The notes below the pieces were generated by a model. It was not told where the DNA came from. It ran no database searches and worked only from the letters and a program-made list of their open reading frames with translations. From Parafilimonas terrae (GTDB lineage Bacteria; Bacteroidota; Bacteroidia; Chitinophagales; Chitinophagaceae): a stretch of 64,000 bases of DNA. A program made the position numbers and the translations under genes. This document shows positions 34,066 to 61,192 of the stretch, piece after piece (positions within the stretch are counted from its first letter, which is position 1; each line of letters starts with the position of its first letter). The stretch is from assembly GCF_900115755.1 (NCBI RefSeq), contig NZ_FOXQ01000003.1:124001-188000 (forward strand), in the 5' to 3' direction.

Positions 34066-34153
34066 AATTATTTTTATAGAGATATGCTGAGGCACGTTTG
34101 CGAATTTGAATATCTCTGCATCACTTTGTACTTTGCCCGTAATATTTTAAAGG

Positions 34154-39005: not shown

Positions 39006-39047
39006 ATTTAAAAAAATATGAACGCAAAAAAGATTATTGAATCTTGA

Positions 39048-39055
39048 TACGTTTG
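39048..39055 (+). promoter_or_regulatory. Candidate -7 element TACGTTTG before the lactate dehydrogenase gene
   Basis: TACGTTTG matches TAnnTTTG exactly and lies 23 bases before the start codon in the 73-base gap after GH106. No convincing -33 TTTG is visible at the right distance, so this may be a weak internal promoter or chance. Confidence 0.35.
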
Positions 39056-39078
39056 CAGCTATAACATAACTTAGAACC

Positions 39079-40233
39079 ATGCAGATAAAATACAATAGTA
39101 ATTATCCATCCATAGACGATCTTAGAAAAAGGGCGCAAAAAAAAATTCCGCGTTTTGCTTTTGAATACCTCGACGGCGGCTGTAATGAAGACATAAACCT
39201 CCATAAAAATACGGCTGACTTACGGGAGATAGAACTGATGCCTTACTATCTTCAAAACTATAAGCCATCCAACCTGAGCACAGAGCTTTTTGGCCACGTT
39301 TATGACGCACCGTTTGGCATTGCGCCTGTTGGCCTGCAGGGCCTCATGTGGCCCAATGCCCCTGAAATACTGGCCAGGGCTGCATTTGAACATAACATCC
39401 CTTTTATATTAAGCACGGTTACAACGTCATCAATTGAAAGAATTGCAGCAATAACAGAAGGCCGTGCATGGTTTCAGTTATACCATCCTGCAGAAAATGA
39501 AATAAGGGACAGCATTATAAACAGGGCTGCAGCAGCGCAAATGCCCGTGCTTGTAATTTTAAGCGACGTTCCAACATTTGGGTACAGGCCGAGAGATATT
39601 CGCAACGGCCTTGCCATGCCGCCAAAAATGACGCTGCAGAATATTTTGCAGATAATGGGAAAACCTGGATGGGCTTTAAAAACACTGATACATGGCCAGC
39701 CTGCATTTGCCACAATGAAGCAATACATGCCTAAAGGCTTAAACATGAAACAGCTTGGCTTATACATGAACAAAACTTTTTCAGGCAGGCTGAACGAAGA
39801 AAAGATAAAACCGATAAGGGATATGTGGAAAGGCAAACTGGTTATAAAAGGTGTGGCCAGCGAAGAAGATACAGACATGGCGATAAGATTAGGGCTTGAT
39901 GGCATTATTGTTTCCAACCATGGCGGCAGGCAGCTGGATGCCGGGCAATCGGCCATTCACTCGCTTCAAACAATTATAAAAAACTATAAGCATAAAATAA
40001 AAATTATGATGGACAGCGGCATCCGCTCCGGCCCCGACATTGCGAGGACACTGGCAACCGGCGCTGAATTTGCCTTTCTTGGAAGAACCTTTATGTACAG
40101 CGTTGCGGCGCTGGGCAATGAAGGCGGTAACCATGCCATATCTATCTTAAAAACGCAGGTGCAGCAGGTAATGGAACAGGTTTGCTGCGCAAACGTTGCA
40201 GACTTTCCCAATCATCTTATTAATAATGGTTAA
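39079..40233 (+). CDS. FMN-dependent alpha-hydroxy-acid (L-lactate) dehydrogenase
   Basis: This 384-residue TIM-barrel flavoprotein has LPVGLQG-type FMN contacts (FGIAPVGLQGLMWPNAPE), substrate-side WFQLYHPAENE, and VIKGVASEEDTDMAIRLGLDGIIVSNHGGRQLDAG with the catalytic His and Arg. The FMN phosphate loop is MMDSGIRSGPDIARTLATGAEFAFLGRTF. Family members oxidise L-lactate or glycolate. Rhamnose catabolism by RhaEW yields L-lactate, so its position between the rhamnosidase and RhaT fits a lactate dehydrogenase (LldD-like) feeding pyruvate. Confidence 0.85.
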   Translation: MQIKYNSNYPSIDDLRKRAQKKIPRFAFEYLDGGCNEDINLHKNTADLREIELMPYYLQNYKPSNLSTELFGHVYDAPFGIAPVGLQGLMWPNAPEILARAAFEHNIPFILSTVTTSSIERIAAITEGRAWFQLYHPAENEIRDSIINRAAAAQMPVLVILSDVPTFGYRPRDIRNGLAMPPKMTLQNILQIMGKPGWALKTLIHGQPAFATMKQYMPKGLNMKQLGLYMNKTFSGRLNEEKIKPIRDMWKGKLVIKGVASEEDTDMAIRLGLDGIIVSNHGGRQLDAGQSAIHSLQTIIKNYKHKIKIMMDSGIRSGPDIARTLATGAEFAFLGRTFMYSVAALGNEGGNHAISILKTQVQQVMEQVCCANVADFPNHLINNG

Positions 40234-40343
40234 TCTTTATTTAAAACATACATCGCATAATGCAGCAATAAGCATAACAGTACATAACGGTATAAGAAAT
40301 TTGAGAAATTAATTTTACATTATTCAAAAATCTTTCCTAACGA

Positions 40344-41423
40344 ATGCAGGTTATTCTCGGCATTATTTTTCATTTTATCGGTGGTGCTGCTTCAGGCAGT
40401 TTTTATGTGCCATATAAAAAGGTAAAGGGCTGGCACTGGGAAAACTATTGGCTCGTCGGGGGCTTGTTTTCATGGCTTATCGTTCCGCCAATTGCAGCCT
40501 GGATAACCATTCCTGGCTTTACTGAAATAATCGCGCAAACAGATGCATCTGTTTTTTGGTGGACGTTTTGCTGGGGTATTCTCTGGGGCATCGGTGGTTT
40601 AATGTATGGCCTGGGCATGCGTTATTTAGGTATGAGTTTGGGCAATTCGGTATTGCTCGGCTTTACATCTGCATTTGGCGCATTGGTTCCCGCCATCTAC
40701 TATAATTTTCATCCGCAGGATGGCAAAACAACATTTACCGACCTGCTTACCACTTCATGGGGGCGCATTGTATTGGCGGGTATTATAATATGCCTGCTTG
40801 GTATTTTTATTTGTGGCCGGGCCGGGGTATTAAAGGAAAAAGAATTACCCGAAGAAAAAAAGAAAGAAAGCATAAAGGAATTTAATCTTGTAAAAGGATT
40901 AATTGTTTGTATTATCTCCGGCATTCTCAGCGCCTGCTTTAATTATGGCATTGAAGCCGGATCGCCAATGGCTGAAGTTGCCAACAATTTATGGAAGGCT
41001 GAACATGCGGCTGAAACGACTAATTTTTTATACCGCAACAATGTTATTTACGTAGTACTGCTGTGGGGCGGCTTAACAACCAATTTTGTATGGTGCATTA
41101 TTTTAAATATACGCAATAAAACATTTGGCGATTATACAAGCCGCAGCTATCCTTTGCTAAGAAATATTATATTCTGTGCGCTGGCCGGTACAACGTGGTT
41201 TTTGCAGTTTTTCTTTTACGGAATGGGCGAAAGTAAATTGGGCAATGGCGCCAGTTCATGGATTTTGCACATGGCATTTATAATACTGGTAGCCAACATG
41301 TGGGGCTTTGCATTAAAAGAATGGAAGGATGTTTCTTCCAAAACAAAAACAACTATTATTCTTGGCGTTGTTACCATAATAGCATCTGTTGCTTTGGTAG
41401 GCGTTGGCAACGCAATGAAGTAA
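40344..41423 (+). CDS. rhaT: L-rhamnose/proton symporter
   Basis: This 359-residue membrane protein has about ten helices, starting MQVILGIIFHFIGGAASGSFYVPYKKVKGWHWENYWLVGG, the RhaT-family opening. GGLMYGLGMRYLGMSLGNSVLLGFTSAFGALVP and GILSACFNYGIEAG are further family segments. It imports L-rhamnose with protons across the inner membrane. The context of GH106, RhaEW, RhaI and rhamnulokinase supports the substrate strongly. Confidence 0.93.
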   Translation: MQVILGIIFHFIGGAASGSFYVPYKKVKGWHWENYWLVGGLFSWLIVPPIAAWITIPGFTEIIAQTDASVFWWTFCWGILWGIGGLMYGLGMRYLGMSLGNSVLLGFTSAFGALVPAIYYNFHPQDGKTTFTDLLTTSWGRIVLAGIIICLLGIFICGRAGVLKEKELPEEKKKESIKEFNLVKGLIVCIISGILSACFNYGIEAGSPMAEVANNLWKAEHAAETTNFLYRNNVIYVVLLWGGLTTNFVWCIILNIRNKTFGDYTSRSYPLLRNIIFCALAGTTWFLQFFFYGMGESKLGNGASSWILHMAFIILVANMWGFALKEWKDVSSKTKTTIILGVVTIIASVALVGVGNAMK

Positions 41424-41462
41424 TCTAAAAAAGAAACGCAGGAATGGAGCATTGAATGTTCT

Positions 41463-41515
41463 GCTCTGCGAAGCCTCCGGACTTTGCAGGATTATGCTAA
41501 AAGTCTCTGACTTTA
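41463..41515 (-). repeat. Dispersed intergenic repeat, family 2, copy 2
   Basis: On the minus strand it reads AAGTCAGAGAC, five variable bases, GCATAATCCTGC, GTCCGGAGGCT and CGCAGAGCA, matching copy 1 at 14686. CTGCAAAG and CTTCGCAG pair around TCCGGA with one mismatch. It lies in the rhaT-rhaEW gap. Confidence 0.6.
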
Positions 41516-41543
41516 TTAATAAATTTTAAAGAGATAAATTATT

Positions 41544-43712
41544 ATGGAATCAAAAAAAACAAATGCGCTTAACAACTCTCTTGCAGGAGATGAAGGTTTA
41601 AACGCCGGCAGCTTTAAACATGTTTCTTATTTATGGAATGATGAAGAAGCCGCAAAACTTGCAGGAGATGAAGTTGCATTATTGGTATATCGTTCAAACT
41701 TATTAGGCGCAGATTTGCGTTTAACCAATTATGGTGGAGGTAATACCTCATGCAAAGCCACGGCAAAAGATCCTTTAACCGGCAAAGATGTTGAAGTAAT
41801 GTGGGTAAAAGGCAGTGGCGGCGATTTGGGCACCATGAAGCGCAGCGGCCTTGCAGCTTTATATGTGGACAGGTTACGTTCCTTAAAAAATATTTATCGC
41901 GGTATTGAGCATGAAGATGAAATGGTGGAACTGTTCAATCACTGCATTTACGACCTTGCTTCAAAAGCGCCGTCTATCGATACGCCCTTGCATGGCTTTC
42001 TTCCTTATAAGCATATAGATCATTTACATCCCGATGCAGCCATTGCAATTGCAGCCGCAAAAGATGGTAAAAAAATAACGCAGGAATTATTCAATGGTTC
42101 CATTGGCTGGGTTGAATGGCAAAGGCCCGGTTTTGACTTGGGGCTGAAATTAAAAGCCGCTATTGATGAAAACCCCGGCCTGCGTGGTATCATGCTTGGC
42201 TCACATGGTTTATTTACCTGGGGCAATACTGCGTATGAAAGCTATGTAAACACATTGGAAGTAATTGAAAAATGCGCCCAATACCTTGAAGATAATTATG
42301 GCAAAAAAAGGCCAACATTCGGCGGGCAGAAATTACAATCTTTACCTAAAGAAGAAAGGCTTGCAAAAGCAGCAGCGCTGGCGCCGGTATTAAGGGGTTT
42401 CTGTTCATCCAAACAAAATATGATAGGCCATTTTACAGACGATGACCGTGTGCTTGAATACATTAATTCAAATGATCTTGAAAGATTGGCGCCAATGGGC
42501 ACAAGCTGCCCCGATCACTTCCTGCGCACTAAAATATCGCCGCTGGTTTTAAATATTTCAACAGATGAAGATGTAACGGATGTTACCGCCATAAAAGAAA
42601 AACTGGCGCCGCAGTTTGAAGCATACAGAAATATGTATGCTGAATATTATGAAACCTGCAAGCATCCAAACAGCCCGGCCATGCGTGATGCAAACCCGGT
42701 TATTATTTTATATCCAGGCGTTGGCATGTTCAGCTTTGCTAAAGACAAACAAACCACAAGGGTTGCTTCAGAATTTTATATCAATGCCATCAATGTAATG
42801 AAAGGCGCTGAAGCTGTGAGCGAATACACTTCGCTGCCGCGCCAGGAAGCTTTCAATATTGAATACTGGTTATTGGAAGAAGCAAAACTGCAGCGCATGC
42901 CAAAGCCAAAACCATTAAGCGGAAGAATTGCTTTAATAACCGGCAGCGCCGGCGGCATTGGCAAAGCCATCGCTAAAAAGTTTGCAGCAGAAGGCGCATG
43001 TGTTGTTATTAATGATATTAACGAAGAGCGCCTGCAGGGCGCAATGGAAGAATTTAAAACGCAGTTTGGAAGAGATACAGCCTCATCAACATTACTGGAT
43101 GTAACTAACAACGATACCATTGAAAAAGCTTTTACCGATGCAGTGCTTGCTTTTGGCGGCGTTGATATTGTGATAAATAATGCGGGCATCAGCATATCAA
43201 AATCCATTACCGATCATTCCATTGCAGATTGGGATAAGCTATATGATATTTTGGTGAAAGGCCAGTTCCTCGTTTCCAAAGCCGGTATTGAAATTATGCG
43301 CAAGCAAAATATTGGCGGCGACATCATCAACATCGTTTCAAAAAATTCTGTTGTTGCAGGACCAAACAATGCGGGCTATGGCAGCGCAAAAGCAGCGCAG
43401 GCGCACCTTTCACGTTTGCTGGCAGCAGAGCTTGGCAGCGATAAGATTCGTGTAAACACCGTAAATCCGGATGCGGTTATTGCAGACAGCAATATCTGGG
43501 CAGGAGGCTGGGCCGAAGGCCGCGCCAAAGCTTATGGTATAACTGTAGAAGAATTGCCGGCTTATTATGCAAAGCGCACATTGCTGAATGAAGCTATTTT
43601 ACCGGAAGATATTGCCAATGCATGTTTTGTATTTGTTGGCGGGCTGCTTAATAAATCAACAGGCAATGTTTTAAATGTTGATGGCGGCGTGGCGGCGGCG
43701 TTTTTGAGATAG
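41544..43712 (+). CDS. Bifunctional rhamnulose-1-phosphate aldolase/lactaldehyde dehydrogenase
   Basis: This 722-residue fusion has an N-terminal class II aldolase domain (about 1-430) with NYGGGNTSCKA, WVKGSGGDLGTM, DTPLHGFLPYKHIDHLHPD (zinc histidines) and GIMLGSHGLFTWG. The C-terminal SDR domain (about 455-722) has ALITGSAGGIGKAIA, VINNAGIS and YGSAKAAQ. This matches RhaE-W type enzymes, which cleave rhamnulose-1-phosphate to DHAP and L-lactaldehyde and oxidise the latter to L-lactate with NAD. It has no separate RhaA/RhaD-type partners and works with RhaI and the kinase downstream. Confidence 0.92.
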   Translation: MESKKTNALNNSLAGDEGLNAGSFKHVSYLWNDEEAAKLAGDEVALLVYRSNLLGADLRLTNYGGGNTSCKATAKDPLTGKDVEVMWVKGSGGDLGTMKRSGLAALYVDRLRSLKNIYRGIEHEDEMVELFNHCIYDLASKAPSIDTPLHGFLPYKHIDHLHPDAAIAIAAAKDGKKITQELFNGSIGWVEWQRPGFDLGLKLKAAIDENPGLRGIMLGSHGLFTWGNTAYESYVNTLEVIEKCAQYLEDNYGKKRPTFGGQKLQSLPKEERLAKAAALAPVLRGFCSSKQNMIGHFTDDDRVLEYINSNDLERLAPMGTSCPDHFLRTKISPLVLNISTDEDVTDVTAIKEKLAPQFEAYRNMYAEYYETCKHPNSPAMRDANPVIILYPGVGMFSFAKDKQTTRVASEFYINAINVMKGAEAVSEYTSLPRQEAFNIEYWLLEEAKLQRMPKPKPLSGRIALITGSAGGIGKAIAKKFAAEGACVVINDINEERLQGAMEEFKTQFGRDTASSTLLDVTNNDTIEKAFTDAVLAFGGVDIVINNAGISISKSITDHSIADWDKLYDILVKGQFLVSKAGIEIMRKQNIGGDIINIVSKNSVVAGPNNAGYGSAKAAQAHLSRLLAAELGSDKIRVNTVNPDAVIADSNIWAGGWAEGRAKAYGITVEELPAYYAKRTLLNEAILPEDIANACFVFVGGLLNKSTGNVLNVDGGVAAAFLR

Positions 43713-43721
43713 TTTGGTGAT

Positions 43722-43743
43722 GATATTTGGATATTGAGATATT
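43722..43743 (+). repeat. Left inverted repeat bordering the four-helix-bundle gene
   Basis: GATATTTGGATATTGAGATATT starts here, and its near-exact complement lies at 44150-44170 (one substitution, one indel; shared core GATATTGAGATATT). The pair brackets the small gene between rhaEW and rhaI and suggests that the block moved in as a unit. Confidence 0.65.
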
Positions 43744-43776
43744 ATGATATTGGATAATTTGCATTCAAACTGCTGT

Positions 43777-44151
43777 ATGAAAGAAATTATCCGTTTAGAA
43801 GATTTGGAAATCTATCAGCTTGCGCTTGAAATTGGAGACTATGTATGGAATATTGTTATACGTTGGGATTATCTTGCCAAAAGAACAATAGGGAGTCAAT
43901 TTATTGAAGCGGTTGATTCGATAGCAGCTAATATATCTGAAGGTTATGGCAGGTATTTCTTCAAAGACCGCAAGCAATTTTGTTATTATAGCAGAGGCTC
44001 TTTAATGGAAACAAAAACGTGGTCTGCAAAAGCGCATAATCGCCAGTTAATTACAAAAGAAGAGTTTGATCTTCTCAGTCAAAAACTTAAAATATTGCAT
44101 TATAAACTCAATACTTACATTAAAGCATTAAAAGATAATACCGGCAGTTAA
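43777..44151 (+). CDS. Four-helix-bundle protein (23S rRNA intervening-sequence protein family)
   Basis: The protein is 124 residues from MKEIIRLEDLEIYQLALEIGDYVWNIV. The FxDLxxxxxA-like opening, the central GSQFIEAVDSIAANISEGYGRYFFKDRKQFCYYSRGSLMET and the final helix are the signature of the S23/IVP four-helix-bundle family, which was first found in rRNA intervening sequences but is common as scattered single genes in Bacteroidota. The role is unknown. It interrupts the rha operon and is bounded by inverted repeats at 43722 and 44150, the right one directly abutting the stop. Confidence 0.88.
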   Translation: MKEIIRLEDLEIYQLALEIGDYVWNIVIRWDYLAKRTIGSQFIEAVDSIAANISEGYGRYFFKDRKQFCYYSRGSLMETKTWSAKAHNRQLITKEEFDLLSQKLKILHYKLNTYIKALKDNTGS

Positions 44152-44170
44152 TATCTCAATATCTAATATC
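44150..44170 (-). repeat. Right inverted repeat bordering the four-helix-bundle gene
   Basis: AATATCTCAATATCTAATAT plus C is the complement of the 43722-43743 repeat. It begins at the last bases of the four-helix gene and ends 13 bases before the rhaI start codon. Confidence 0.65.
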
Positions 44171-44183
44171 ATACTATCTAAAT

Positions 44184-45458
44184 ATGAACATCGAACAATA
44201 TAAGCTCAATGAATACAATCAATCAGCACTGAAAGATCATCAGCGCAAATTTGATTTTATTGCTGCTGATATAAAAAGTATTGAAGCCATCCTGCAAAAA
44301 CTTATCAATTTTCAGGTGGCCATTCCATCATGGGCATTAGGTACAGGCGGTACGCGCTTTGCAAGGTTTGCCGGCGGCGGCGAGCCACGCAGCCTTGAAG
44401 AGAAGATTGAAGATATTGGTTTGCTGCATGCATTAAACAAAAGCAGCGGCGCCATCTCTTTACATATTCCATGGGATATACCGGAAAATGCAGCGCATAT
44501 AAAAACACTGGCTGCACAGCATGGCCTTAAGTTCGATGCCATGAACTCCAACACTTTCCAGGACCAGCCTGGCCAGCAGCACAGTTATAAATTCGGCTCC
44601 ATGCAGCATGTAAATAAAGCTATTCGCAAACAGGCTGTTGAACACAATATTGAAGTAATAAAATATGGCGTTGAATTAGGCTCAAAATCGCTCACCGTAT
44701 GGCTTTCAGACGGTTCATGTTTTCCAGGCCAGTTAAATTTCCGGAAGGCTTTTCAAAACACACTGGAAAGTTTGCAGGAAGTGTATGCAGCTTTGCCTGG
44801 TGACTGGAAAATATTTGTGGAATACAAAGCTTTTGAACCCAATTTTTATTCAACAACAGTGGGCGATTGGGGCCAGTCGTTTTTATATGCAAACAAATTA
44901 GGCAACAAAGCATATACCCTGGTTGATCTTGGCCATCATTTACCCAATGCCAACATTGAACAGATTGTTGCTTTATTATTAATGGAAGGCAAGCTGGGCG
45001 GTTTTCATTTTAACGACAGTAAATATGGCGATGATGATTTAACGGTGGGCAGCATTAAGCCTTATCAGCTCTTTTTAATTTTTAATGAACTGGTTGAAGG
45101 CATGGACGCAAAAGGCATGAACCATGCTACAGGCCTTGGCTGGATGATTGATGCAAGCCATAATGTAAAGGACCCGCTGGAAGATTTGCTGCAATCTGTT
45201 GAAGCCATTATGATAACATACGCGCAGGCGTTGCTGGTCGACAGAAATAAACTTAATGAAGCGCAAAACAATAATGATGTTGTAACAGCGCAGGAAATTT
45301 TACAGCAGGCATTTCGTACCGATGTACGCGCCCTGGTGGCAGAAGCAAGATTGAGAAGCGGCGGCGCATTAAACCCGTTAGCAGTTTATCGCAGTGAAAA
45401 AGTAAGGGATAATTTAATTAAGGAAAGAGGCAGCAAAACAGTTGCCACGGGATTATAA
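44184..45458 (+). CDS. rhaI: L-rhamnose isomerase (RhaI type)
   Basis: This 424-residue TIM-barrel sugar isomerase contains IPSWALGTGGTRFARFAGGGEPRSLEEKIED, ISLHIPWD, FVEYKAFEPNFYSTTVGDWGQS, LVDLGHHLPNANIEQIVA and GGFHFNDSKYGDDDLTVGS, whose E, D and H residues bind the two metal ions. It converts L-rhamnose to L-rhamnulose. This is the Pseudomonas stutzeri/Bacteroidota type rather than the E. coli RhaA type. It lies between the four-helix element and the kinase, 49 bases before the latter. Confidence 0.92.
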   Translation: MNIEQYKLNEYNQSALKDHQRKFDFIAADIKSIEAILQKLINFQVAIPSWALGTGGTRFARFAGGGEPRSLEEKIEDIGLLHALNKSSGAISLHIPWDIPENAAHIKTLAAQHGLKFDAMNSNTFQDQPGQQHSYKFGSMQHVNKAIRKQAVEHNIEVIKYGVELGSKSLTVWLSDGSCFPGQLNFRKAFQNTLESLQEVYAALPGDWKIFVEYKAFEPNFYSTTVGDWGQSFLYANKLGNKAYTLVDLGHHLPNANIEQIVALLLMEGKLGGFHFNDSKYGDDDLTVGSIKPYQLFLIFNELVEGMDAKGMNHATGLGWMIDASHNVKDPLEDLLQSVEAIMITYAQALLVDRNKLNEAQNNNDVVTAQEILQQAFRTDVRALVAEARLRSGGALNPLAVYRSEKVRDNLIKERGSKTVATGL

Positions 45459-45506
45459 ACAATAAACTCTTGGAAAGTTTTAAACTTGCCAAAAGTTGTT
45501 AGCAAT

Positions 45507-46889
45507 ATGAACAATCAGAATGTCATCGCCATATTCGATGTAGGTAAAACCAACAAAAAGCTATTCCTGTTCGATGAACAGTATAACATCGTGCACGAAG
45601 AATCAACAAAGCTTAACGAAATAAAGGATGAAGACGGCTTTGAATGCGAAGATGTGCAAACGCTCACGAACTGGATACGTGAAAAGTTTATTGAGGTATC
45701 ATCCAATAATAAATACAATATACAGGCAATAAATTTTTCAGGCTATGGCGCAAGCTTTGTGCACGTTGATAAAAATGGCAAGCCGGTAACACCGTTGTAT
45801 AACTACTTAAAGCCTTACCCGCAAAAACTGCAGCAGGAATTTTATGCTGCTTATGGCGGCGAAAGTTTAATTGCAAGGCAAACTGCTTCGCCTGTTTTAG
45901 GCCATCTTAATTCAGGCATGCAGTTATATTGGTTAAAACACACAAAGCCCGATGTGTTTGCCGCGATTAAGCATTCGCTTCATCTTCCCCAATACCTGAG
46001 CTTTATTATTTCTTCAACGCCGTCATCCGATCTCACCAGCATTGGCTGCCATACCCAATTATGGCATTTCCAAAAAGGCAAATACCACAACTGGGTGTGT
46101 AAAGAAGATATAGATATAAAATTTCCGGCAATATTTAAAAGCAATGCGGTTGTGCAAATTGAAAGTGGCTCAAATAATATTGCTGTGGGCGTTGGCCTGC
46201 ACGATAGTTCTGCAGCCCTTATACCTTATCTCAAATTATTTAAAGAGCCTTTTGTGCTTATTTCTACGGGCACATGGTGCATTAGCTTAAACCCGTTCAA
46301 TGCATCTATACTTACCGATTATGAATTGCACAATGATTGTTTGTGCTATTTAACGTATGAAGGCAAACCCGTAAAGGCATCGCGGTTATTCGCAGGCTAT
46401 GAACATGAACAGCAGGTTAAAAAGCTGGCGCAGCATTTTAACACCAGCGAAGATTATTACAAAACAGTTTTGTTTGATAATGATTTAATGCAAAACCTCG
46501 ACCTGAAAATTGCTACCAAAACCATCAGCAATCAATCTGCAATGGTTCATCGTTCCGCATTTGAAAAGAGGAACCTGCAACATTTTAAAACTTATGAAGA
46601 GGCTTACCACCAGCTAATTTCAGATATTATTGCGCAGCAGGTTTTTTCAACAAAACTGGTGCTTACCAATACGCCCGTTAAACAAATATTTGTTGATGGC
46701 GGCTTTGGCAACAACGATATATATATGAATTTGCTTGCCGCTGCTTTTCCTAATATTAAAGTATTCGCTGCAAGCATACCACAAGCTTCGGCCCTTGGCG
46801 CTGCGCTTGCATTGCACGATCACACGCATGGCGCTTCGCCTGTACCCGATCTCATTCAGCTTAAATATTTTCCGGTTAAAAAAAATTAA
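45507..46889 (+). CDS. FGGY-family rhamnulokinase
   Basis: The protein is 460 residues from MNNQNVIAIFDVGKTNKKLFLFDEQ, which is the FGGY phosphate-1 motif. The substrate-binding QLYWLKHTKPDVF, the ATP-domain LISTGTWCISLNPF, and the adenosine motif KQIFVDGGFGNNDIYMNLLAAAFPNIKVF with ASALGAALALH are present. Sequence alone gives only an FGGY sugar kinase; the operon makes rhamnulose the clear substrate. An upstream in-frame ATG-like start at 45486 adds seven residues and is less convincing. Confidence 0.88.
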   Translation: MNNQNVIAIFDVGKTNKKLFLFDEQYNIVHEESTKLNEIKDEDGFECEDVQTLTNWIREKFIEVSSNNKYNIQAINFSGYGASFVHVDKNGKPVTPLYNYLKPYPQKLQQEFYAAYGGESLIARQTASPVLGHLNSGMQLYWLKHTKPDVFAAIKHSLHLPQYLSFIISSTPSSDLTSIGCHTQLWHFQKGKYHNWVCKEDIDIKFPAIFKSNAVVQIESGSNNIAVGVGLHDSSAALIPYLKLFKEPFVLISTGTWCISLNPFNASILTDYELHNDCLCYLTYEGKPVKASRLFAGYEHEQQVKKLAQHFNTSEDYYKTVLFDNDLMQNLDLKIATKTISNQSAMVHRSAFEKRNLQHFKTYEEAYHQLISDIIAQQVFSTKLVLTNTPVKQIFVDGGFGNNDIYMNLLAAAFPNIKVFAASIPQASALGAALALHDHTHGASPVPDLIQLKYFPVKKN

Positions 46890-46892
46890 TAC

Positions 46893-49148
46893 TTGCAAAC
46901 ATTTAAGTTTATGCACCGCAATCTTACAATTGTATTATTCTTTATTTTCCCAATATCGCAGTTATGCGCACAACAATCTTATTCGCCTTTTTTGGAAGAA
47001 CTCCAAACTGCCGACTGGCTTATTCAACCCGTTAATCAAAAAGCAGGGGTTTATTATACGGCAGATAAGAAAGGGATTATTTTATACAACGGCCTTACAA
47101 AAAGAACATTCACATTGGCGCCGGGCTTTGCCTGCATTGATTATAAAAATATGAGCAACGGCCAGCAGCTTTTACGTTCTGTGCAGCCTGAAGCGAAGCT
47201 TACTATTGATGACTCAGCATACAATGTTGGCGGCTTGTACGGGCAAACAGAAAATGCTTATCTGCTACCTTCATGGATAAATAGTTTTACAACAAACAAT
47301 GCAGGTTTTGTTTACAAAAATTTTTCGGTGAGCGATATGCAACCCTTTCTTAACTGGAAGTGCACCACATGGGCATTCAATAAAAAGCAGGCAACAGGTA
47401 AAATGCTTACCATTTATTTTGAAGGCAACCGCGAAGCTGTAAAAAACATTACTGTAGAAATTAAGTATGAAATATACGATGGCCTGCCGCTGATAACAAA
47501 ATCGCTTGTTATTAAAAATAACAGTAACAAAGCTGTAAAGCTTAACCGTGTAATAAACGAGGTGTTAGGTGTTGTGGAAGAAGGCAGCGCCGTTGTGGGC
47601 TCTGAAGAAAAAATGGCAAAGCAGCATGGCATTTATATTGAAAGCAATTATGCTTTTAATAATTCCATGAATTATAATGAAAGCGATCAAACCACGCATT
47701 GGCAAAAAGATACCACTTACACTTCGCAGGTAAATTATAATTTAACCACACCCTGTTTATTGCAGGTATATGCTGAAAATGCGCCAGGTATTGCATTACA
47801 GCCAGGTGAAACGTTTCATTCTATTCGCACCAACGAATTGCTGCTGGATAGTTACGACCGTGAAAGGCGCGGATTAATGGTGCAACAGATGTATAGGACC
47901 GTTGCGCCGTGGACAACCCAAAACCCCATCTTCATGCACCTCGTAAGCAAAAACGATGAAGAAGTTTACAATGCGATTGACCAGTGCGCAGCCACTGGTT
48001 ATGAAGCATTGATATTAAGCTTTGGCAGCCATTGCAAGATGGAAGACACATCGGCTGCCAACATTCAGCACTGGAAAAAAATAGCTGGTTATGCGCATAG
48101 CAAAAACATTTTAATTGGCTGTTATTCTTTATTCAGTTCAAGACATATCAGCGATAGCGATGACGTTATCAATCCTGCTACCGGAAAACCCGGCGGCGCC
48201 TTTTTTGGCAATGCGCCCTGTTATGGCAGTAAATGGGGATTAACCTATCGCGATAAGATAAAATATTTCTTTGCGCAAACTGATTTCAATATTTGGGAAA
48301 ATGACGGCCCCTACCCCGGCGATATATGCGCTTCAACAACGCATCCCGGCCATAAGGATAAAGATGACAGCCAATGGCGACAGATGGAAATTCAAAAAGA
48401 ATTATATCACTGGCTGAATGAAAGGGGCGTGTATATAAATGCACCTGACTGGTATATATTGGATGGAACCAACAAGTTGCCTTTAGGCTACAGGGAAGCA
48501 AATTTTTCATTGCCAAGAGATCAGCAAAAAATATTAAACAGGCAAAATATTTTTGATGGCACCTGGGAAAAAACACCATCGATGGGCTGGGGCTTTGTGC
48601 CGCTTACAGTTTACCAGGGCGGCGGCGCAGAAGCAGTACTGGAGCCACTTTCAGCGCATTTAAAAGATTATGAACAATTGATGATGCAGTATTACGGCGC
48701 CGGCATACAGGCTTGCTACCGCGGGCCAAGATTATATGATAATGATACAACCAAAGCAACTGTAATAAAAGTAATTAACTGGTACAAACAGCATCGCGGT
48801 ATTTTAAATTCATCTGTTATTCATTTACGCCGCGCCGATGGCCGCGACTGGGATGGCTGGATGCATATAAACCCATCATTAAAAGAAAAAGCGCTGGTAA
48901 TGTTGTTTAATCCAACAAAGGAAAAGATAACCCGCAACATTAAGCTGCCCTTATATTATGCAGGTTTAAATAACAAAGCATCAATAAGTATTATGGGTGC
49001 ACCTGCTGTAACAATGCAGCTTGACCGCAGCTATAACATTTCATTGCCTGTAACTTTAAATGCAGGTGAATATAAATGGATAGTGATAGAGCAAAACGGG
49101 TTTAATGAAGCGCATACCAACCAGCTTCAGCATGCTGCCGGGCATTAA
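46893..49148 (+). CDS. Putative secreted glycoside hydrolase, family not recognised (GH36-like architecture)
   Basis: The protein is 751 residues, or 745 from the ATG at 46911, which gives the better signal peptide MHRNLTIVLFFIFPISQLCAQ. The N-terminal third reads as a beta-sandwich (TVEIKYEIYDGLPLITKSLVIKNNSNKAVKLN), as in GH36/GH31-type enzymes. The centre reads as a barrel with YEALILSFGSHCKMED, NIWENDGPYPGDICAST and YYGAGIQACYRGPRLYDND, and the C-terminus as a small sandwich. D/E residues in WENDGPYPGD are candidate catalytic acids. I cannot name a family. It is 3 bases after the kinase stop, so a substrate containing rhamnose is likely. Its stop overlaps that of the convergent AraC gene by 4 bases. 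Confidence 0.65.
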   Translation: MQTFKFMHRNLTIVLFFIFPISQLCAQQSYSPFLEELQTADWLIQPVNQKAGVYYTADKKGIILYNGLTKRTFTLAPGFACIDYKNMSNGQQLLRSVQPEAKLTIDDSAYNVGGLYGQTENAYLLPSWINSFTTNNAGFVYKNFSVSDMQPFLNWKCTTWAFNKKQATGKMLTIYFEGNREAVKNITVEIKYEIYDGLPLITKSLVIKNNSNKAVKLNRVINEVLGVVEEGSAVVGSEEKMAKQHGIYIESNYAFNNSMNYNESDQTTHWQKDTTYTSQVNYNLTTPCLLQVYAENAPGIALQPGETFHSIRTNELLLDSYDRERRGLMVQQMYRTVAPWTTQNPIFMHLVSKNDEEVYNAIDQCAATGYEALILSFGSHCKMEDTSAANIQHWKKIAGYAHSKNILIGCYSLFSSRHISDSDDVINPATGKPGGAFFGNAPCYGSKWGLTYRDKIKYFFAQTDFNIWENDGPYPGDICASTTHPGHKDKDDSQWRQMEIQKELYHWLNERGVYINAPDWYILDGTNKLPLGYREANFSLPRDQQKILNRQNIFDGTWEKTPSMGWGFVPLTVYQGGGAEAVLEPLSAHLKDYEQLMMQYYGAGIQACYRGPRLYDNDTTKATVIKVINWYKQHRGILNSSVIHLRRADGRDWDGWMHINPSLKEKALVMLFNPTKEKITRNIKLPLYYAGLNNKASISIMGAPAVTMQLDRSYNISLPVTLNAGEYKWIVIEQNGFNEAHTNQLQHAAGH

Positions 49149-50029
49149 ATAAACGACCTTGTTCCGTAAGCATTATAGGCATCGCGAAATTCCTTTGGCG
49201 TGCAGCCTTTCTTCTTCCTGAATATGCGGTTAAAATTGGAGATATTATTAAAGCCGCATTTATAACCCACTTCGGTTATGTTATGCGTTGTATCAATCAG
49301 CATGCGGCTGGCCTGGCCTAACCTTATTTCGTTTACCGTATCAATAAAAGTGCGGCCGGTTCTTGCTTTAAAAAAACGGCTGAAAGAAATATCGGTCATG
49401 GAAGCAATGCGGGCCGCTTCAGATAAGGTTATGTTTTTAGAGAAATTAAGATTGATATACTCCATTACTTTTTCAATGCGCCGGCTGCCATAAGAAAATG
49501 CTTCAAGACTGCTGAATGCGCCATCGGAGAGAATGCGCATGTTACGAGAAGCAGAAAGATCGTGCAGCAGGCTCATCAGTTCAAGCACAGAATCAAAACC
49601 CTGCTTCTTTAAAAGCGCAAACAACCTTGGTTCAATGGCTGTAATTGTTTCTTTTGAAAACAATACGCCCCGCAGCGACCGTTCCAGCAGGTTTTTTATA
49701 AAATGCATCTGGTTGCGGTTAAGAAATTTTTCATCAAACAGGTCGCGGTGAAACTGAATAGTTATCTCTTTAATCTCTTTGCTTTTGCATTTATGATTAA
49801 ACCATCCGTGCTGCAAATTAGGGCCAACCAACACCAGCTCAAGATCATCTATAGCTTCAATATGATCACCAATAATGCGTTGTGCATTCCTCGCATTCTG
49901 AATAAAATTCAGTTCAAATTCTTCATGATAATGTAAGGGAAAATCAAACTTATCCTTTGTGCGGGAGAAGATAGTAAAACAGTCATTTTTTGTAAGCGGA
50001 ATAATTTCCCTCAGTAATTCAGCAGCCAT
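49145..50029 (-). CDS. AraC-family transcriptional regulator
   Basis: This 294-residue regulator has an N-terminal cupin-like domain (FPLHYHEEFELNFIQNARNAQRIIGDHIEAIDDLELVLVGPNLQHGWF) and a C-terminal double helix-turn-helix (MEYINLNFSKNITLSEAARIASMTDISFSRFFKARTGRTFIDTVNEIRLGQASRMLIDTTHNITEVGYKCGFNNISNFNRIFRKKKGCTPKEFRDAY). It is divergent from susC across 191 bases with two direct repeats, so it probably controls the mannan locus in response to a sugar, in place of the hybrid two-component system common in such loci. Confidence 0.9.
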   Translation of the reverse strand: MAAELLREIIPLTKNDCFTIFSRTKDKFDFPLHYHEEFELNFIQNARNAQRIIGDHIEAIDDLELVLVGPNLQHGWFNHKCKSKEIKEITIQFHRDLFDEKFLNRNQMHFIKNLLERSLRGVLFSKETITAIEPRLFALLKKQGFDSVLELMSLLHDLSASRNMRILSDGAFSSLEAFSYGSRRIEKVMEYINLNFSKNITLSEAARIASMTDISFSRFFKARTGRTFIDTVNEIRLGQASRMLIDTTHNITEVGYKCGFNNISNFNRIFRKKKGCTPKEFRDAYNAYGTRSFI

Positions 50030-50220: not shown

Positions 50221-53200
50221 ATGATGAAATTGATAAAACCAGGACTAACCTGTTTTTTTCTGCTTGCCCTTTTCCATATTTCTTTAGCGCAAACCAGAAC
50301 AATTACAGGGTCTGTTACAGACAGCAGCGGCACCCCGCTGGCGGGGGCAACTGTTTCCGTAAAAAATTCAACAGCTATTGCACTCACCGATCTCAAAGGC
50401 GCATTTTCTTTAAGGCTGCCGGCAAATGCCGAAACATTAGTGGTGAGTTATGTGGGTATGATTGCAAGGGAAATTCCTATCGGCAGCAACTCCTCTTTCA
50501 CCGTTACACTTCAATCCGCTGGCGCGCAGTTAGGCGATGTGGTGGTAGTGGGCTATGGCACAGCCAGAAAAGCCAATCTTACAACTGCACAAACTTCTGT
50601 ATCGGCAACAGCCATTGAAAAAACAGTAAATACAACGATTGAGCAGGCATTGCAGGGCCGTGCTGCCGGCGTGTATGTTACGCAAAATTCAGGGCAGCCG
50701 GGCGGTGGGTTATCGGTAAATATCAGGGGCATAAGTACTTTAAATGGCACTACCCAGCCATTATATGTAATTGATGGCGTACAAATACAGGCCAGTGAAG
50801 ATGTGTCGTACGGCAATGCCAGTTCTACTAACACACTCGCAGGTTTAAACCCCTCTGATATAGATGATATACAAATATTGGAAGGGCCATCTGCTACAGC
50901 TATTTATGGTTCCCGCGGAACAAACGGTGTGATAATAATTACAACAAAGCGTGGCAAAGCAGGTGAATTTAAAATCAATTATGGATATCAATACAACCTT
51001 CAAACACCGCCCGACCATCTTTCTGTAATGAACCTGCAGCAATATGCAAGCATGGTTAAACAATATCACAACCTTGCGGGAGGCGAAACCCCTGATGAAT
51101 TTTTAGACTCTTCTTTATTAGGAGAAGGAACAGACTGGCAAGGCGAGTTATTTAATAATGCCGCTATGAACAAACACCAATTAAACCTGAGTGGCGGAAG
51201 CGGTAATACCACTTACTATCTCTCCGGTGAATATTTAAACCAGGATGGTGTGGCAGAAGGTTCTGGTTTTAAAAGATATGGCGTAAGGCTAAACCTTGAT
51301 AACAAGCCAAGGCCCTGGTTAACTATTGGTACAAATCTTAGTTTCAATCAAACAAACGAAAACCTTGTTACAACCAATTATGGCGATGCCGGCAGCCCGC
51401 TTATAGCCAATGCATTAAGGTTAACGCCTCAAATACCGGTAACCAATTTTGATGGCTCCTGGGGAGGCAGCGACCCGGTGAATGGCGCTAACCAGTTTGC
51501 ACCTATTAACCCCATTGCACTGGCCAACCTCATTACCAATAAAAATATGAAAAGACAGTTTTTGGGAGGCCTGAATATTGGTATAACCATTTTGCCCGGC
51601 CTTGTGCTCAGGAGTTCTTTTAACGGCAACATCGGCAATGGCCTTTCTACTTATTATACGCCTACTTATAATATTGACCAGTGGCATATAAATACAATAG
51701 CTTCTTTAACTACCGGCACCTACTCAAGCTGGTATTGGAACTGGAACGAACTGATTGAATACAACAAGCAAATAGGCAAACATAATTTAGGCCTGATGAT
51801 AAGCCACGAAGCGCAGGAGTCTCAATGGAAGGCATTAAGCGCAGGCAGAACAGGCTTTCTCACAAACGATATTTTTGATGTAGAAGCTGGCGATCCGCTC
51901 TCGGCCACCAATAGCGGGGGCACTTATCCCTGGTCAATGGAATCTTATTTGGGAAGGTTGAATTATAATTATGATAACCGCTATTTATTAACGGCCACTT
52001 ACAGAAGAGATGGCTCACCAAATTTTGGCGCTGATAAAAGATGGGGCAGTTTTCCTTCCATATCAGTAGCATGGCGGTTAAGCCAGGAAAAATTCTTTAA
52101 TATTCCCTGGATGAGTGAAGCCAAACTGAGATATGAAACAGGTTTAACCGGCAACCAGGGCAACACCAGTTCAGGCGTTTACGCCGCTATGGCTACCGGC
52201 GCCACACAATGGGGCACAGGTTTTTTGCCATCAACCTTTACCAATCCTGAACTTCAATGGGAAGAAACCAATACCAATAACTTTGGCCTGAACCTGGGCT
52301 TTGTAAAAAACAGAATAACAGTTGATGCAAACTATTATACCCGTGATGTAAGCAACATGCTGATGCCTGCCAGCCTGCCCTGGTACATGGGCACCAATAA
52401 CAGCCCCGGTTCCGTTGGCGCACCCCAGGTTAATGCCGGCTCATTAAAAACAAAAGGCTGGGACATAACTATAAACGCAGCTATAATCGACAATAAAAAC
52501 TTTAAATGGAATTCCAACTTTAATATCTCACACTATAAGAGCACTATCACTTCCCTGAATTCAGACATGGCCTTCTTCGAAAGATCTTCCTGGTGGATGA
52601 ATAACTGGACGCAACGTTCTGCCATTGGCTACCAGCCCTGGCTGTTCAGGGGATATATAGCAGACGGCCTCTTTCAATCTGTAGAAGATATTGAAAACAG
52701 CCCGGTCCCTGTTGACAATACAGGCGCCAGGATACCAGCCAATCAAAGTACCGGCTTATGGGTAGGCGATGTGAAATATAAAGATATTAACGGTGACGGT
52801 ATTATAACGGTAGATGATATGACCAATATCGGCAATCCCTGGCCTAAGCTTACCGGCGGTTTTACAAACACTTTTAATTATAAAGGTTTTGAACTAAGCA
52901 TCCTGATAATAGGAACTTATGGCAATGATGTTTACAATTACATAGTACAGGATGCAAGCAATCCCAACAATATTAACCTGAGCAGGAATTTAATGACAGA
53001 TGTGATGGGCTATGCTAAGTTAACCGATGATGGCGCCGGCAAGGTAGCTATATCAAATTCTGGAACAAAAATACCAAGAATAACCAGTGGCCAAATAGCT
53101 GCCGACAATAACTTCAACAGGATATCAAGCCGGTTTGTGGAAGATGGCTCTTACCTGCGTATAAAAAACATCTCATTATCTTATGATTTTCCTGCACAAT

Positions 53201-53409
53201 GGTTAGGCTATGCCAAAGTGATAAAAGGCCTGCGGGCAACTATAGGCACACAAAACCTGGCTACGTTTACCAAATACAAAGGTTACGATCCTGAAGTAGG
53301 CTCTTACGTAGGCACCGGTTCAGCATCAAATAACCAGGCCATTGGTATAGATTTCGGCCGCTACCCGCTAACCAGAATGTATAACGTTGCGGTAAGCGTA
53401 AACTTTTAA
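50221..53409 (+). CDS. SusC/RagA-family TonB-dependent outer-membrane transporter
   Basis: This 1062-residue protein has a signal peptide (MMKLIKPGLTCFFLLALFHISLAQ), an N-terminal carboxypeptidase-like domain (RTITGSVTDSSGTPLAGATVSVKNS, about 25-100), TonB-box-like GDVVVVGYGTARKANLT, the plug with VNIRGISTLNGTTQPLYVIDGVQI and the SusC signature, then a 22-strand barrel ending in LTRMYNVAVSVNF. It imports oligosaccharides captured by its SusD lid. The SusD gene follows after 12 bases. Context with GH26 and GH130 points to manno-oligosaccharides. Confidence 0.96.
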   Translation: MMKLIKPGLTCFFLLALFHISLAQTRTITGSVTDSSGTPLAGATVSVKNSTAIALTDLKGAFSLRLPANAETLVVSYVGMIAREIPIGSNSSFTVTLQSAGAQLGDVVVVGYGTARKANLTTAQTSVSATAIEKTVNTTIEQALQGRAAGVYVTQNSGQPGGGLSVNIRGISTLNGTTQPLYVIDGVQIQASEDVSYGNASSTNTLAGLNPSDIDDIQILEGPSATAIYGSRGTNGVIIITTKRGKAGEFKINYGYQYNLQTPPDHLSVMNLQQYASMVKQYHNLAGGETPDEFLDSSLLGEGTDWQGELFNNAAMNKHQLNLSGGSGNTTYYLSGEYLNQDGVAEGSGFKRYGVRLNLDNKPRPWLTIGTNLSFNQTNENLVTTNYGDAGSPLIANALRLTPQIPVTNFDGSWGGSDPVNGANQFAPINPIALANLITNKNMKRQFLGGLNIGITILPGLVLRSSFNGNIGNGLSTYYTPTYNIDQWHINTIASLTTGTYSSWYWNWNELIEYNKQIGKHNLGLMISHEAQESQWKALSAGRTGFLTNDIFDVEAGDPLSATNSGGTYPWSMESYLGRLNYNYDNRYLLTATYRRDGSPNFGADKRWGSFPSISVAWRLSQEKFFNIPWMSEAKLRYETGLTGNQGNTSSGVYAAMATGATQWGTGFLPSTFTNPELQWEETNTNNFGLNLGFVKNRITVDANYYTRDVSNMLMPASLPWYMGTNNSPGSVGAPQVNAGSLKTKGWDITINAAIIDNKNFKWNSNFNISHYKSTITSLNSDMAFFERSSWWMNNWTQRSAIGYQPWLFRGYIADGLFQSVEDIENSPVPVDNTGARIPANQSTGLWVGDVKYKDINGDGIITVDDMTNIGNPWPKLTGGFTNTFNYKGFELSILIIGTYGNDVYNYIVQDASNPNNINLSRNLMTDVMGYAKLTDDGAGKVAISNSGTKIPRITSGQIAADNNFNRISSRFVEDGSYLRIKNISLSYDFPAQWLGYAKVIKGLRATIGTQNLATFTKYKGYDPEVGSYVGTGSASNNQAIGIDFGRYPLTRMYNVAVSVNF

Positions 53410-53421
53410 ACTACTGTGAAT

Positions 53422-55107
53422 ATGAAAAAGATAACATATATAAATTATTTGGTAATTGTATTGTTAGCTGTTGCAGCTTTATCAGGCTGTAAAAAAGACT
53501 TTTTAGAAAAACCGCCTGAAAGTGCAATCGTAGATGTCAACTTCTATCAGAATGATGAACAACTGGCGGCAGCTACATCGCTTTTATACAGCGAAGTTTG
53601 GTTCGACTATAACGACAAGGCCATGTATAACCTTGGCGATTTCAGGGGAGGCTCGGCTTTTTCTGCCTGGAATGACAGGGGCAATGTATTATTTAATACA
53701 ACAGGTGACAATGGTGAGAATGGCGCTTCATGGCGTGCATTTTTTAACGTGGTAGCACAATCCAATCTCGCCATATACAACATTAATCGCTTCGCCGGTG
53801 CAGATGTTACTGATAATGCCAAAAAAGTGGCTATTGCAGAAGCAAGGTTTATGCGGGCGCTGGCTTACCGTTTTCTTGTAATGAACTGGGGACCGGTGCC
53901 TGTTATTGAAAATAATGTTGAACAACTATTTGATACATCTATTACCAGAAACACTGTTTCTAGTGTATGGCGCTTTATTACCCGCGAAATGCGTGCTGCA
54001 GCCGAAGATTTACCAACCGCTTCTTCCCAGGAAGGAAGGCTTACCAAATGGTCTGCTGAAGGAATGCTTGCCCGTTTTTATTTAACCAGGGCTGGTGTAG
54101 AAGGCGGCAACGGCACAAGAAAACAGGAGTTTTTAGATAGTGCTAAATATTATGCACAGGACGTAATTCAAAACAGTGGTAAAAAGTTGCTTGATAATTA
54201 TGAAAGCCTGTTTAAATACCCTTATGATAATAACTCAGAATCCTTGTTTGAGTTGCAATGGGTTTTCTCCGGCCCCAATGCATGGGGCACAGCCAACAGT
54301 ATGCCTGAATACCTTGCCTACAGCCCGGATATTTCGTTCGGTGGATGGGGCGGCGATAAAGGCGCCACCTGGTGGTTGATTAGCCAGTATGACGGCTTCG
54401 CACCACAGGCCGATGGCACTTTAAAAGGAAGAACCTTGGACCAGCGCCTGCATGCCACCTTTATGTTGCCTGGTTTTACCTATCCTGAAATAACAAGCGT
54501 GGGTAACAAAGCAGCATTAGTGTTTCCCTTTACCGGTACAGATAATAATTTTCTCTCGGTAAAAAAATATGTAATTGGCTCTCCTGTAGATTTGGCTGGC
54601 ATAGCATCCCAGCAGCATTATCCAAACGACACTTACATGATGCGCCTGGCTGAATTATATCTTATTTATGCAGAAGCGGTAATAGGCAATAACGGTTCTA
54701 CCAGCGATCCCACGGCTGTTGAATACTTTAATGCAGTACATACAAGGGCCGGTTTGCCTGAATATGAGGTTGGCGGCGCCAACGGAAGCGGGCCACTTAC
54801 ATTAGATAAAGTCTATTCTGAAAGATTTAAAGAATTTGCAATGGAAGGCATGGCCTGGTACGATTTTGTGAGCCTGCATTACTGGAACCCCCAGAAAGCA
54901 TTTGATATGCTGAACGCACAGGACAGGGGCCTGTTTTTCGCACAGCCTGATCAAATGCCTAACCCAACTTTATGGACATTCACCAAAACATCCTGGTTTA
55001 CAGAAAGGCAAATTATTGCCAACGAAGGGAATTTTTTACTGCCTATACCAAATGCAGAATTAAGCCAGGCACCTAATCTTAAAAAAGAACCGGTGGACTA
55101 TCCATAA
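53422..55107 (+). CDS. SusD/RagB-family glycan-binding lipoprotein
   Basis: The protein is 561 residues from MKKITYINYLVIVLLAVAALSGCKKD, a lipoprotein signal with lipobox LSGC; the in-frame GTG at 53416 is less likely. The helical TPR-based SusD fold shows EARFMRALAYRFLVMNWGPVPVIE near the N-terminus and RLAELYLIYAEAVIG with YSERFKEFAMEGMAWYDFVSL near the C-terminus. It caps SusC on the cell surface and binds the incoming glycan. Confidence 0.96.
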   Translation: MKKITYINYLVIVLLAVAALSGCKKDFLEKPPESAIVDVNFYQNDEQLAAATSLLYSEVWFDYNDKAMYNLGDFRGGSAFSAWNDRGNVLFNTTGDNGENGASWRAFFNVVAQSNLAIYNINRFAGADVTDNAKKVAIAEARFMRALAYRFLVMNWGPVPVIENNVEQLFDTSITRNTVSSVWRFITREMRAAAEDLPTASSQEGRLTKWSAEGMLARFYLTRAGVEGGNGTRKQEFLDSAKYYAQDVIQNSGKKLLDNYESLFKYPYDNNSESLFELQWVFSGPNAWGTANSMPEYLAYSPDISFGGWGGDKGATWWLISQYDGFAPQADGTLKGRTLDQRLHATFMLPGFTYPEITSVGNKAALVFPFTGTDNNFLSVKKYVIGSPVDLAGIASQQHYPNDTYMMRLAELYLIYAEAVIGNNGSTSDPTAVEYFNAVHTRAGLPEYEVGGANGSGPLTLDKVYSERFKEFAMEGMAWYDFVSLHYWNPQKAFDMLNAQDRGLFFAQPDQMPNPTLWTFTKTSWFTERQIIANEGNFLLPIPNAELSQAPNLKKEPVDYP

Positions 55108-55148
55108 TTGGTTACCGCAAAAAATTTGAAAAAAGAAATATCATTCCA

Positions 55149-56294
55149 ATGAAACTTACAAAGAATATCTCATTAATACTGCTGATGCTTGCCATGACAA
55201 CATTCATGTTTGTCTCTTGCAAGAAAGATTCATCTTCAGGCGCCACACCCGTAGTGAATTATATAAGGATCACTAGTCCGGCATCTTCTGACTCCCTGCT
55301 CGCAGGCGCGGGCCAGGGCCAGCTTATTGCCATTGTTGGTGATAATTTGCAGAATGCAAGAGAAGTTTGGTTTAACAATCAACAGGCCAGGCTAACACCT
55401 ACATACATCAGCAAAACCAGCATATTGGCTTCTGTTCCCAGCAATATACCCGATTCTATTACAAACACAATAACCATAATCTTCAAAAACGGTTACAGGC
55501 TTGAATATCCTTTCGAGGTGCAAATAAGCAAGCCGTATATAAACAGTATGGTTTGCGAATTTGTAAACGAAGGTAATGTAGCAACCGTTTTGGGCAACTA
55601 CTTTTACGAGCCGCTCACGGTTACTTTTACCGGCGGTGCTACTGCCGAGCTTGTATCTGTTGAAGACGACCAGCTACAATTTAAAGTTCCCGCAAATGCT
55701 CAGCCCGGCCCCATAACCATTACCACCAATTTCGGGGAAACCAAATCTGATTTCTGGTTCAGGGATACAAGGAATATTTTTATTGGCAGCGACCCTTTTG
55801 AAGGCTGGAATAATGCATCGCTTGTAGTAACAAACCCCGGGCCGGGTGACCCGCCTAAAATTAACGGCAACTATTTCAGGATAAAGGGCGCAATTGGCGC
55901 CTGGAGCTGGAATGAGCTTGCCGATGGCGATGCCGGTTCCATGCCAAGCTACAGTAAAAATATTCCGGACGATGCCATTCTTCATCCTGAAAAATATTAT
56001 CTCAAGTTTGAGATAAATACCATGAAGCCTTATAACAACAGTATGATAACCATTAATGCCGGAGGCCAGGTAGTGCAGGATACAAAAGGCTACAAATGGG
56101 CGCCGCCTTATGACAGCAAAGGTGCATGGCAAACGGTGGTTATTCCTTATGATGAAGTTGTAGCAACCTATTCTGTGGCGCCTGTTGTAAATCCAAACGG
56201 ATACTGGGCCATGGTATTGCTGCAAGGCCCCGGCGACCTGGATGCCGATATGAGTTTTGACAACTTCAGGGTTGTTCCAAAAATTGACCAATAA
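55149..56294 (+). CDS. Surface glycan-binding lipoprotein (SusE-position, IPT/TIG domain)
   Basis: This 381-residue protein has lipobox FVSC at the end of MKLTKNISLILLMLAMTTFMFVSC. Two IPT/TIG-like Ig domains (about 38-200: GQLIAIVGDNLQNAREVWFNNQQARLTPTYISKTSILASVP and NEGNVATVLGNYFYEPLTVTFTGG) are followed by a C-terminal jelly-roll (about 210-381) rich in Trp/Tyr, typical of surface glycan-binding proteins placed after SusD. It probably binds mannan before GH26 acts. No enzymatic motif is seen. Confidence 0.78.
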   Translation: MKLTKNISLILLMLAMTTFMFVSCKKDSSSGATPVVNYIRITSPASSDSLLAGAGQGQLIAIVGDNLQNAREVWFNNQQARLTPTYISKTSILASVPSNIPDSITNTITIIFKNGYRLEYPFEVQISKPYINSMVCEFVNEGNVATVLGNYFYEPLTVTFTGGATAELVSVEDDQLQFKVPANAQPGPITITTNFGETKSDFWFRDTRNIFIGSDPFEGWNNASLVVTNPGPGDPPKINGNYFRIKGAIGAWSWNELADGDAGSMPSYSKNIPDDAILHPEKYYLKFEINTMKPYNNSMITINAGGQVVQDTKGYKWAPPYDSKGAWQTVVIPYDEVVATYSVAPVVNPNGYWAMVLLQGPGDLDADMSFDNFRVVPKIDQ

Positions 56295-56322
56295 TATTCA
56301 ATCAATTCTAACTACATATAAG

Positions 56323-57870: not shown

Positions 57871-57873
57871 AAA

Positions 57874-59010: not shown

Positions 59011-59069
59011 TGATTTTTTGCCTTTTCAAGAATGGGTTTTGGGCAAAATGTTCTAAATAAAACAAGCAG

Positions 59070-59099
59070 AAAAGCCTGCAGTTTCCACTCCGGGCTTTT
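59070..59099 (+). terminator. Possible terminator after GH26
   Basis: AAAAGCC (59070-59076) pairs with GGCTTTT (59093-59099) around a 16-base loop, 60 bases after the GH26 stop. The stem is short and the T run is part of the stem, so strength is uncertain. Confidence 0.4.
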
Positions 59100-59147
59100 A
59101 AATGATTGATTGAGTGTATGAGCAGGAAACCGTAGCTGCCATAAATT

Positions 59148-59202
59148 ATGCAGCACAAGGGAGTGACACAACCGTGACGCCATCCGCTCATTAGCTGGCA
59201 AC
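59148..59202 (+). repeat. Dispersed intergenic repeat, family 1, copy D
   Basis: The copy reads ATGCAGCACAAGGGAGTGAC, then ACAACCGTGACGCC, and ends GCTGGCAAC. It shares the core with copy C and the end with copies A, B and E. It lies in the 317-base gap between GH26 and the symporter, which otherwise holds only the weak hairpin before it and the GC-rich leader after it. Confidence 0.7.
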
Positions 59203-59292
59203 ATAAAAATCAAACAATCTTTTGAAAAAAGATATTTGAAAATGAGACAAAAAATGAAACCTCAAATTATTACGAACATTAAAACACCTCTT

Positions 59293-59320
59293 CAGGGCTC
59301 GTCCCGACAAACCGGGAGGA
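59293..59320 (+). repeat. Family 3 repeat and unusual Shine-Dalgarno-like leader
   Basis: CAGGGCTC is followed by TCCCG-ACAAAC-CGGGA, a 5-bp hairpin, then GG. The GGGAGGA at 59314-59320 lies 8-14 bases before the symporter ATG and looks like a strong Shine-Dalgarno site, which is unusual here. A related sequence (CAGGGCTC, TCCCC-TAAA-GGGA) occurs at 11054-11076 inside the glyoxalase-like gene. Confidence 0.4.
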
Positions 59321-59327
59321 TGGGCGC

Positions 59328-61163: not shown

Positions 61164-61192
61164 AGCAACAGCCCGATATAAAACATGCACAC

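Follow-up and report, generated by a model that had tools for sequence, protein, structure and literature searches.

The window analysed here, a stretch of 64,000 nucleotides from contig NZ_FOXQ01000003.1 of Parafilimonas terrae, contains on its plus strand a 751-codon open reading frame (46893-49148) that opens with TTG and encodes a secreted, GH36-like and glycosidase-like protein, as judged from the frame itself, its relatives and a fold model. The protein has 66 relatives with 41-67% identity, a strong conservation indicating that this is not a chance ORF; the gene is real and its product is an exported protein of 745-751 residues. The ATG at 46911 (residue 7; MHRNLTIVLFFIFPISQLCA, followed by QQ) appears to be the likelier start, with a product of 745 residues, since the signal peptide (residues 7-26; 46911-46970, plus strand) then looks normal, with cleavage after LCA as read by eye from the sequence, and since the relatives start at comparable positions. 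The signal peptide reported by the first-pass annotation, made from the sequence alone, is thus retained.

Immediately upstream on the same strand lies the gene of the rhamnulokinase RhaB (45486-46889), preceded by genes encoding a GH106 protein, an FMN dehydrogenase, RhaT, RhaD and RhaI (35580-45458, plus strand), all assigned by profile matches; the GH106 gene at 35580 reaches 1075 bits to its family. A gene for a 23S rRNA intervening-sequence-type protein is inserted between rhaD and rhaI (43744-44151, plus strand), and a GH92 gene and a GntR-type regulator (31825-35185, plus strand) are found just before the GH106 gene. The first-pass annotation described our gene as following rhamnulokinase by 3 bases and being co-expressed with rhamnose catabolism; this distance applies to the TTG and becomes 21 bases from the ATG at 46911, a gap that would still be compatible with co-transcription. 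Downstream, a convergent AraC-type regulator gene (49145-50029, minus strand; ORF list and Pfam) overlaps the last 4 bases of our gene and stands opposite a distinct group of genes for SusC/SusD-like and sugar-processing proteins. The region 50221-62401 (plus strand) encodes SusC/SusD-like proteins (names assigned from sequence), two IPT-like proteins, a GH26 protein, a sodium:solute symporter and a GH130 protein, and has the appearance of an adjacent locus for mannan utilisation.

No Pfam or NCBIfam model covers the protein, in agreement with its earlier description as a member of an unrecognised family. The lone Pfam lead is a sub-threshold match to the GH36 N-terminal domain (PF16875; residues 181-220 of the plus-strand product, 19.4 bits for a cut-off of 27, E 0.0008). 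No NCBIfam or PHROGs entry matches the protein, Melibiase (PF02065) gives no match even at E 1, and neither Pfam nor NCBIfam yields, at E 1, a GH106 or rhamnosidase match of the sort that would place the protein in the alpha-L-rhamnosidase families GH78 or GH106. The Melibiase model works on this genome, since a canonical GH36 alpha-galactosidase encoded in the same window (8512-10683, minus strand), with all three GH36 Pfam domains, scores 353 bits. A PDB search with the single protein returned the GH36 N-terminal lead, a chance protease row and nothing else; a profile of the family reached the structure 2xn0 through the N-terminal domain (E 1.3e-06). Among the 67 members of our main alignment (the window protein and 66 of 67 long loci, L020 being omitted for an over-long frame), 54 match PF16875 at E 0.1 (best 1.3e-05) and three weakly match GH97 (best E 0.0053), to which the window protein itself has no match; the tally of families at this threshold does not include Melibiase.

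The related-locus search confirmed 73 loci, nearly all titled Bacteroidota and one Pirellulales. The family is present in 15 of 99 relatives' genomes (genome search), in 13 of 345 genomes sampled from the phylum of the window and in 27 of 294 genomes from that of the Pirellulales member; it is widespread in bacteria, including many Bacteroidota and Planctomycetota. Longer versions of about 940-1,040 residues or codons (L142, L153, L154, L157, L158, L159, L160, L100 and L101) carry an insertion of ~200 residues following model position about 180. We found no description matching this GH36-like family in the open-access literature; it is without a name as judged against Pfam, NCBIfam and PHROGs, and a CAZy or GHL name may exist.

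Fold prediction, proposed as a check by the first-pass annotation, gave a confident model: AlphaFold2 on the 67-row alignment reached a mean pLDDT of 87.1 and a pTM of 0.88. The best PDB rows in Foldseek correspond to GH36 alpha-galactosidases (E 7.5e-23), and VIA-align superposes residues 50-736 of the model on 2xn0 (Z 25.5, rmsd 4.4, 572 aligned residues), identity to the GH36 enzymes being 10-13%; families absent from the VIA-align list were not counted as excluded. The model comprises an N-terminal beta-sandwich (about residues 51-335; 47043-47897), also touched by the profile matches, a (beta/alpha)8 barrel (about residues 345-615; 47925-48737), in agreement with the fold searches, and a C-terminal beta-sandwich (about residues 640-735; 48810-49097), found again by VIA-align, all three on the plus strand. 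Judging from this model, the protein almost certainly adopts a three-domain GH36-like fold, and the three-part architecture first suggested from the sequence is borne out for each of its domains.

Two segments of the barrel contain the candidate catalytic residues. The segment NIWENDGPYPGD (48288-48323, plus strand), located by profile alignment and row conservation, lies at the end of beta-4 and includes Asp471 (48303-48305). The segment YINAPDWYILDG...GYREANFSLPR (48432-48518, plus strand), delimited by row conservation, includes Asp519 (48447-48449, beta-5) and Glu535 (48495-48497). Asp471, Asp519, Glu535 and Arg542 are identical in 107/107 rows, a count based on 107 of 111 rows (four without a barrel were dropped) that includes repeats: L091 is the window itself, L135 matches L072, and L086 and L098 show no difference over the regions displayed. 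Two further alignments used 39 of 41 and 67 of 92 rows. Over its full length, the protein could not be aligned globally with GH36 by profiles, and the local version of this alignment misplaced strands 4 to 7. A local profile alignment trimmed to the barrel, against the GH36 proteins of related genomes, gives a weak match (pairwise E 0.0011, probability 20%); it pairs Asp471 with Asp467, the KWD aspartate of the window GH36, and Glu469 with Lys465, and leaves strands 6 and 7 unaligned. Asp471 is the likely nucleophile by this pairing, and the WENDGPYPGD segment previously singled out as the best active-site candidate does contain it. Glu469 was also considered for this role and rejected: residue 469 is Glu in 104 of 107 rows and Thr in the other three, whereas Asp471 is invariant. 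Because the alignment stops short of strands 6 and 7, the role of Glu535 is a guess from its spacing to Arg542 (+7), which equals that between Asp548 and Arg555 in AgaA, where positions were located by the PDB mutant entries 4fnu (D478A) and 4fnt (D548N); with somewhat less assurance than for the nucleophile, Glu535 may be taken as the acid/base.

The GH36 motifs LDDGW, the KWD lysine, CSGGGGR and SDxTD are absent from the family rows examined, and the absence of the usual motifs recorded in the first reading is upheld. On strand 2, F-G-S replaces the D-D-G-W of GH36, with Phe377 and Ser379 identical in 107/107 rows, and the strand-5 CSGGGGR is replaced by N-x-P-D. In GH36 enzymes, the strand-2 aspartates and the strand-4 lysine bind galactose. 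Since these galactose-binding motifs are absent, the protein is probably not an alpha-galactosidase, and since it lacks both a match to the catalytic profile and the motifs for sugar binding, we call it GH36-like and not GH36. Residue 466 (48288-48290), which opens the strand-4 motif, is Asn in the window protein versus Asp in 79 of 107 rows. In a subgroup formed by L143, L145 and L146, FTHDG and YLRVPD are found instead of the usual LEHDG and YLNVPD; these two pocket positions have changed together and perhaps confer another specificity.

The operon position has been read as showing the function, the enzyme then being an alpha-L-rhamnosidase, possibly of a new type, or a glycosidase acting on rhamnose-containing side chains. 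The gene does follow rhaB on the same strand, with a GH106 gene in the same cluster, and it co-occurs with rhaB by genome: rhaB is present in 13 of the 15 genomes with the gene versus 20 of 84 others (Fisher 6e-06), and in 13/14 versus 13/26 among genomes of at least 4 Mb (p 0.013). However, not one of 110 related loci has rhaB, rhaI or rhaT next to the gene, and no GH106 gene is found within 6 kb in any of them (0.7 expected). These 110 loci (72 plus 38, as two of 40 fetched regions, L192 and L195, were dropped for having no target frame) probably count at least one genome twice, since the contigs of L059 and L174 have equal lengths. Among 30 rhaB loci (one in the window, 29 in relatives), examined with flanks of 1.5 kb and including a few contigs that end early, the gene follows rhaB in the window only. 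Other genes come after rhaB in two genomes of the same genus; in one of them, the following gene encodes a 313-residue protein that looks exported (L208, 3023-3964). In the 12 other genomes with both the gene and rhaB, the two were never seen adjacent, although the contigs of G007 and G036 are perhaps too short. When small genomes are left out, GH106 itself shows no genome-level association (8/14 versus 12/26). The rhamnose neighbourhood looks peculiar to this genome, the gene having presumably joined the end of the rhamnose operon there, and the substrate should not be read from this one operon; the proposal of a rhamnose-tied function fares poorly, and we consider a rhamnose-releasing enzyme unlikely.

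A tighter association is seen with GH29 alpha-L-fucosidase-like genes, found in 15/15 genomes with the gene versus 30/84 others (14/14 versus 14/26 among large genomes). They occur within 6 kb at 23 of the 110 loci, 11 of them within 300 bases, versus 2.6 expected from a density estimated on 15 genomes (G000 and its family and order relatives), which is rough for other groups, the rows being moreover related. The control families at the same loci and distance give 6 versus 1.2 expected for GH92 (5-fold) and 12 versus 4.1 for sulfatases (3-fold), in keeping with a general clustering of glycosidase genes; GH29 genes are the strongest recurrent neighbour found against this density control. In the phylum of the Pirellulales member, adjacent-gene Pfam tallies show no single partner family, and in the window itself the gene sits among rhamnose genes and not fucosidases. 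Fucose-bearing glycans can be put forward tentatively as the target, with the odds somewhat against.

The fold over the whole length and the alignment of the nucleophile could also correspond to an ordinary but divergent GH36 alpha-galactosidase or alpha-N-acetylgalactosaminidase. FpGalNase, a galactosaminidase of this fold, is among the VIA-align rows, and GH20 (7/75) and GH123 (4/75) are represented among the adjacent genes (75 of 79 used in one adjacent-gene alignment). Such an assignment seems improbable to us: PF02065 is missing both from the window protein and from the tally of the 67 members, the galactose-binding motifs are all gone, with other invariant residues in their place, and the window already encodes a canonical GH36. 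Hardly more probable is an inverting GH97-like enzyme in which the strand-5 Asp519 would be the general base and Asp471 would take part in substrate binding. Asp519 is indeed invariant, SusB (GH97) is among the Foldseek matches (E about 1e-15), and a strand-5 residue has a precedent in GH97, for which PMC1249566 describes a candidate nucleophile located on either strand 4 or strand 5. Inversion is possible given the weak GH97 matches of the three members, as GH97 includes inverting enzymes (title of 3wfa). Nevertheless, fold coverage favours GH36 (TM about 0.58 versus 0.43), and the strand-4 Asp is equally invariant.

We favour, with a probability of about 0.6, an exported exo-alpha-glycosidase that acts with retention and belongs to a GH36-like family within the alpha-galactosidase superfamily, one not covered by Pfam or NCBIfam models. 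Glycosidase activity as such is very likely. Catalysis by this enzyme would probably be a retaining double displacement in which Asp471, at the end of the fourth barrel strand, would attack the anomeric carbon and Glu535, in the strand-6 region, would protonate the leaving group. The sugar pocket appears to have been rebuilt, Phe-x-Ser replacing the strand-2 Asp-Asp, Glu469 the strand-4 Lys and N-x-P-D the strand-5 CSGGGGR; the substrate would therefore probably be a sugar in alpha linkage that is not galactose, perhaps cleaved off glycans also bearing fucose or a similar deoxysugar. More speculatively, and with somewhat less than an even chance, the family could constitute a new GH family of this superfamily, present in Bacteroidota and Planctomycetota, defined by its Asp/Glu pair and by a rebuilt strand-2 pocket for a sugar not known so far as a substrate in the clan, e.g., a deoxysugar or substituted sugar in alpha linkage that caps fucosylated glycans. 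New carbohydrate specificities come from highly conserved glycosidase families that are still uncharacterised; here, the predicted fold, candidate nucleophile, invariant pocket and GH29 partner narrow the substrates and mutants worth trying to a few.

Among known systems, the GHL1-GHL15 families of Naumoff, cited in PMC5352709, resemble this family by description, the level at which they were compared, as hypothetical and uncharacterised glycosidase-like families. GH97 enzymes share a fold match and the weak profile matches of a few members, and differ by poorer coverage and TM. GH27 enzymes, which belong to the same clan (GH-D), superpose through the barrel and the C-terminal domain (Z about 21, about 325 residues) at about 10-12% identity; they lack the large N-terminal beta-sandwich, in agreement with the VIA-align aligned lengths. 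FpGalNase, the alpha-galactosaminidase of Flavonifractor plautii (9awt, 9ayu), was retrieved in both fold searches (Z 22.7 for 9ayu) and, compared at the fold level, shows about 10-12% identity and a poorer superposition (rmsd 8.3 for 9ayu). The closest resemblance is to the GH36 alpha-galactosidases (AgaA/AgaB, 2xn0, SpAga and AgaSK), from which the family is separated by its low identity and by the loss of the Melibiase match and of the four motifs, and with which it shares the three domains at a Z of about 25, a nucleophile Asp aligned with Asp471, and the acidic-x6-Arg spacing in the acid/base region.
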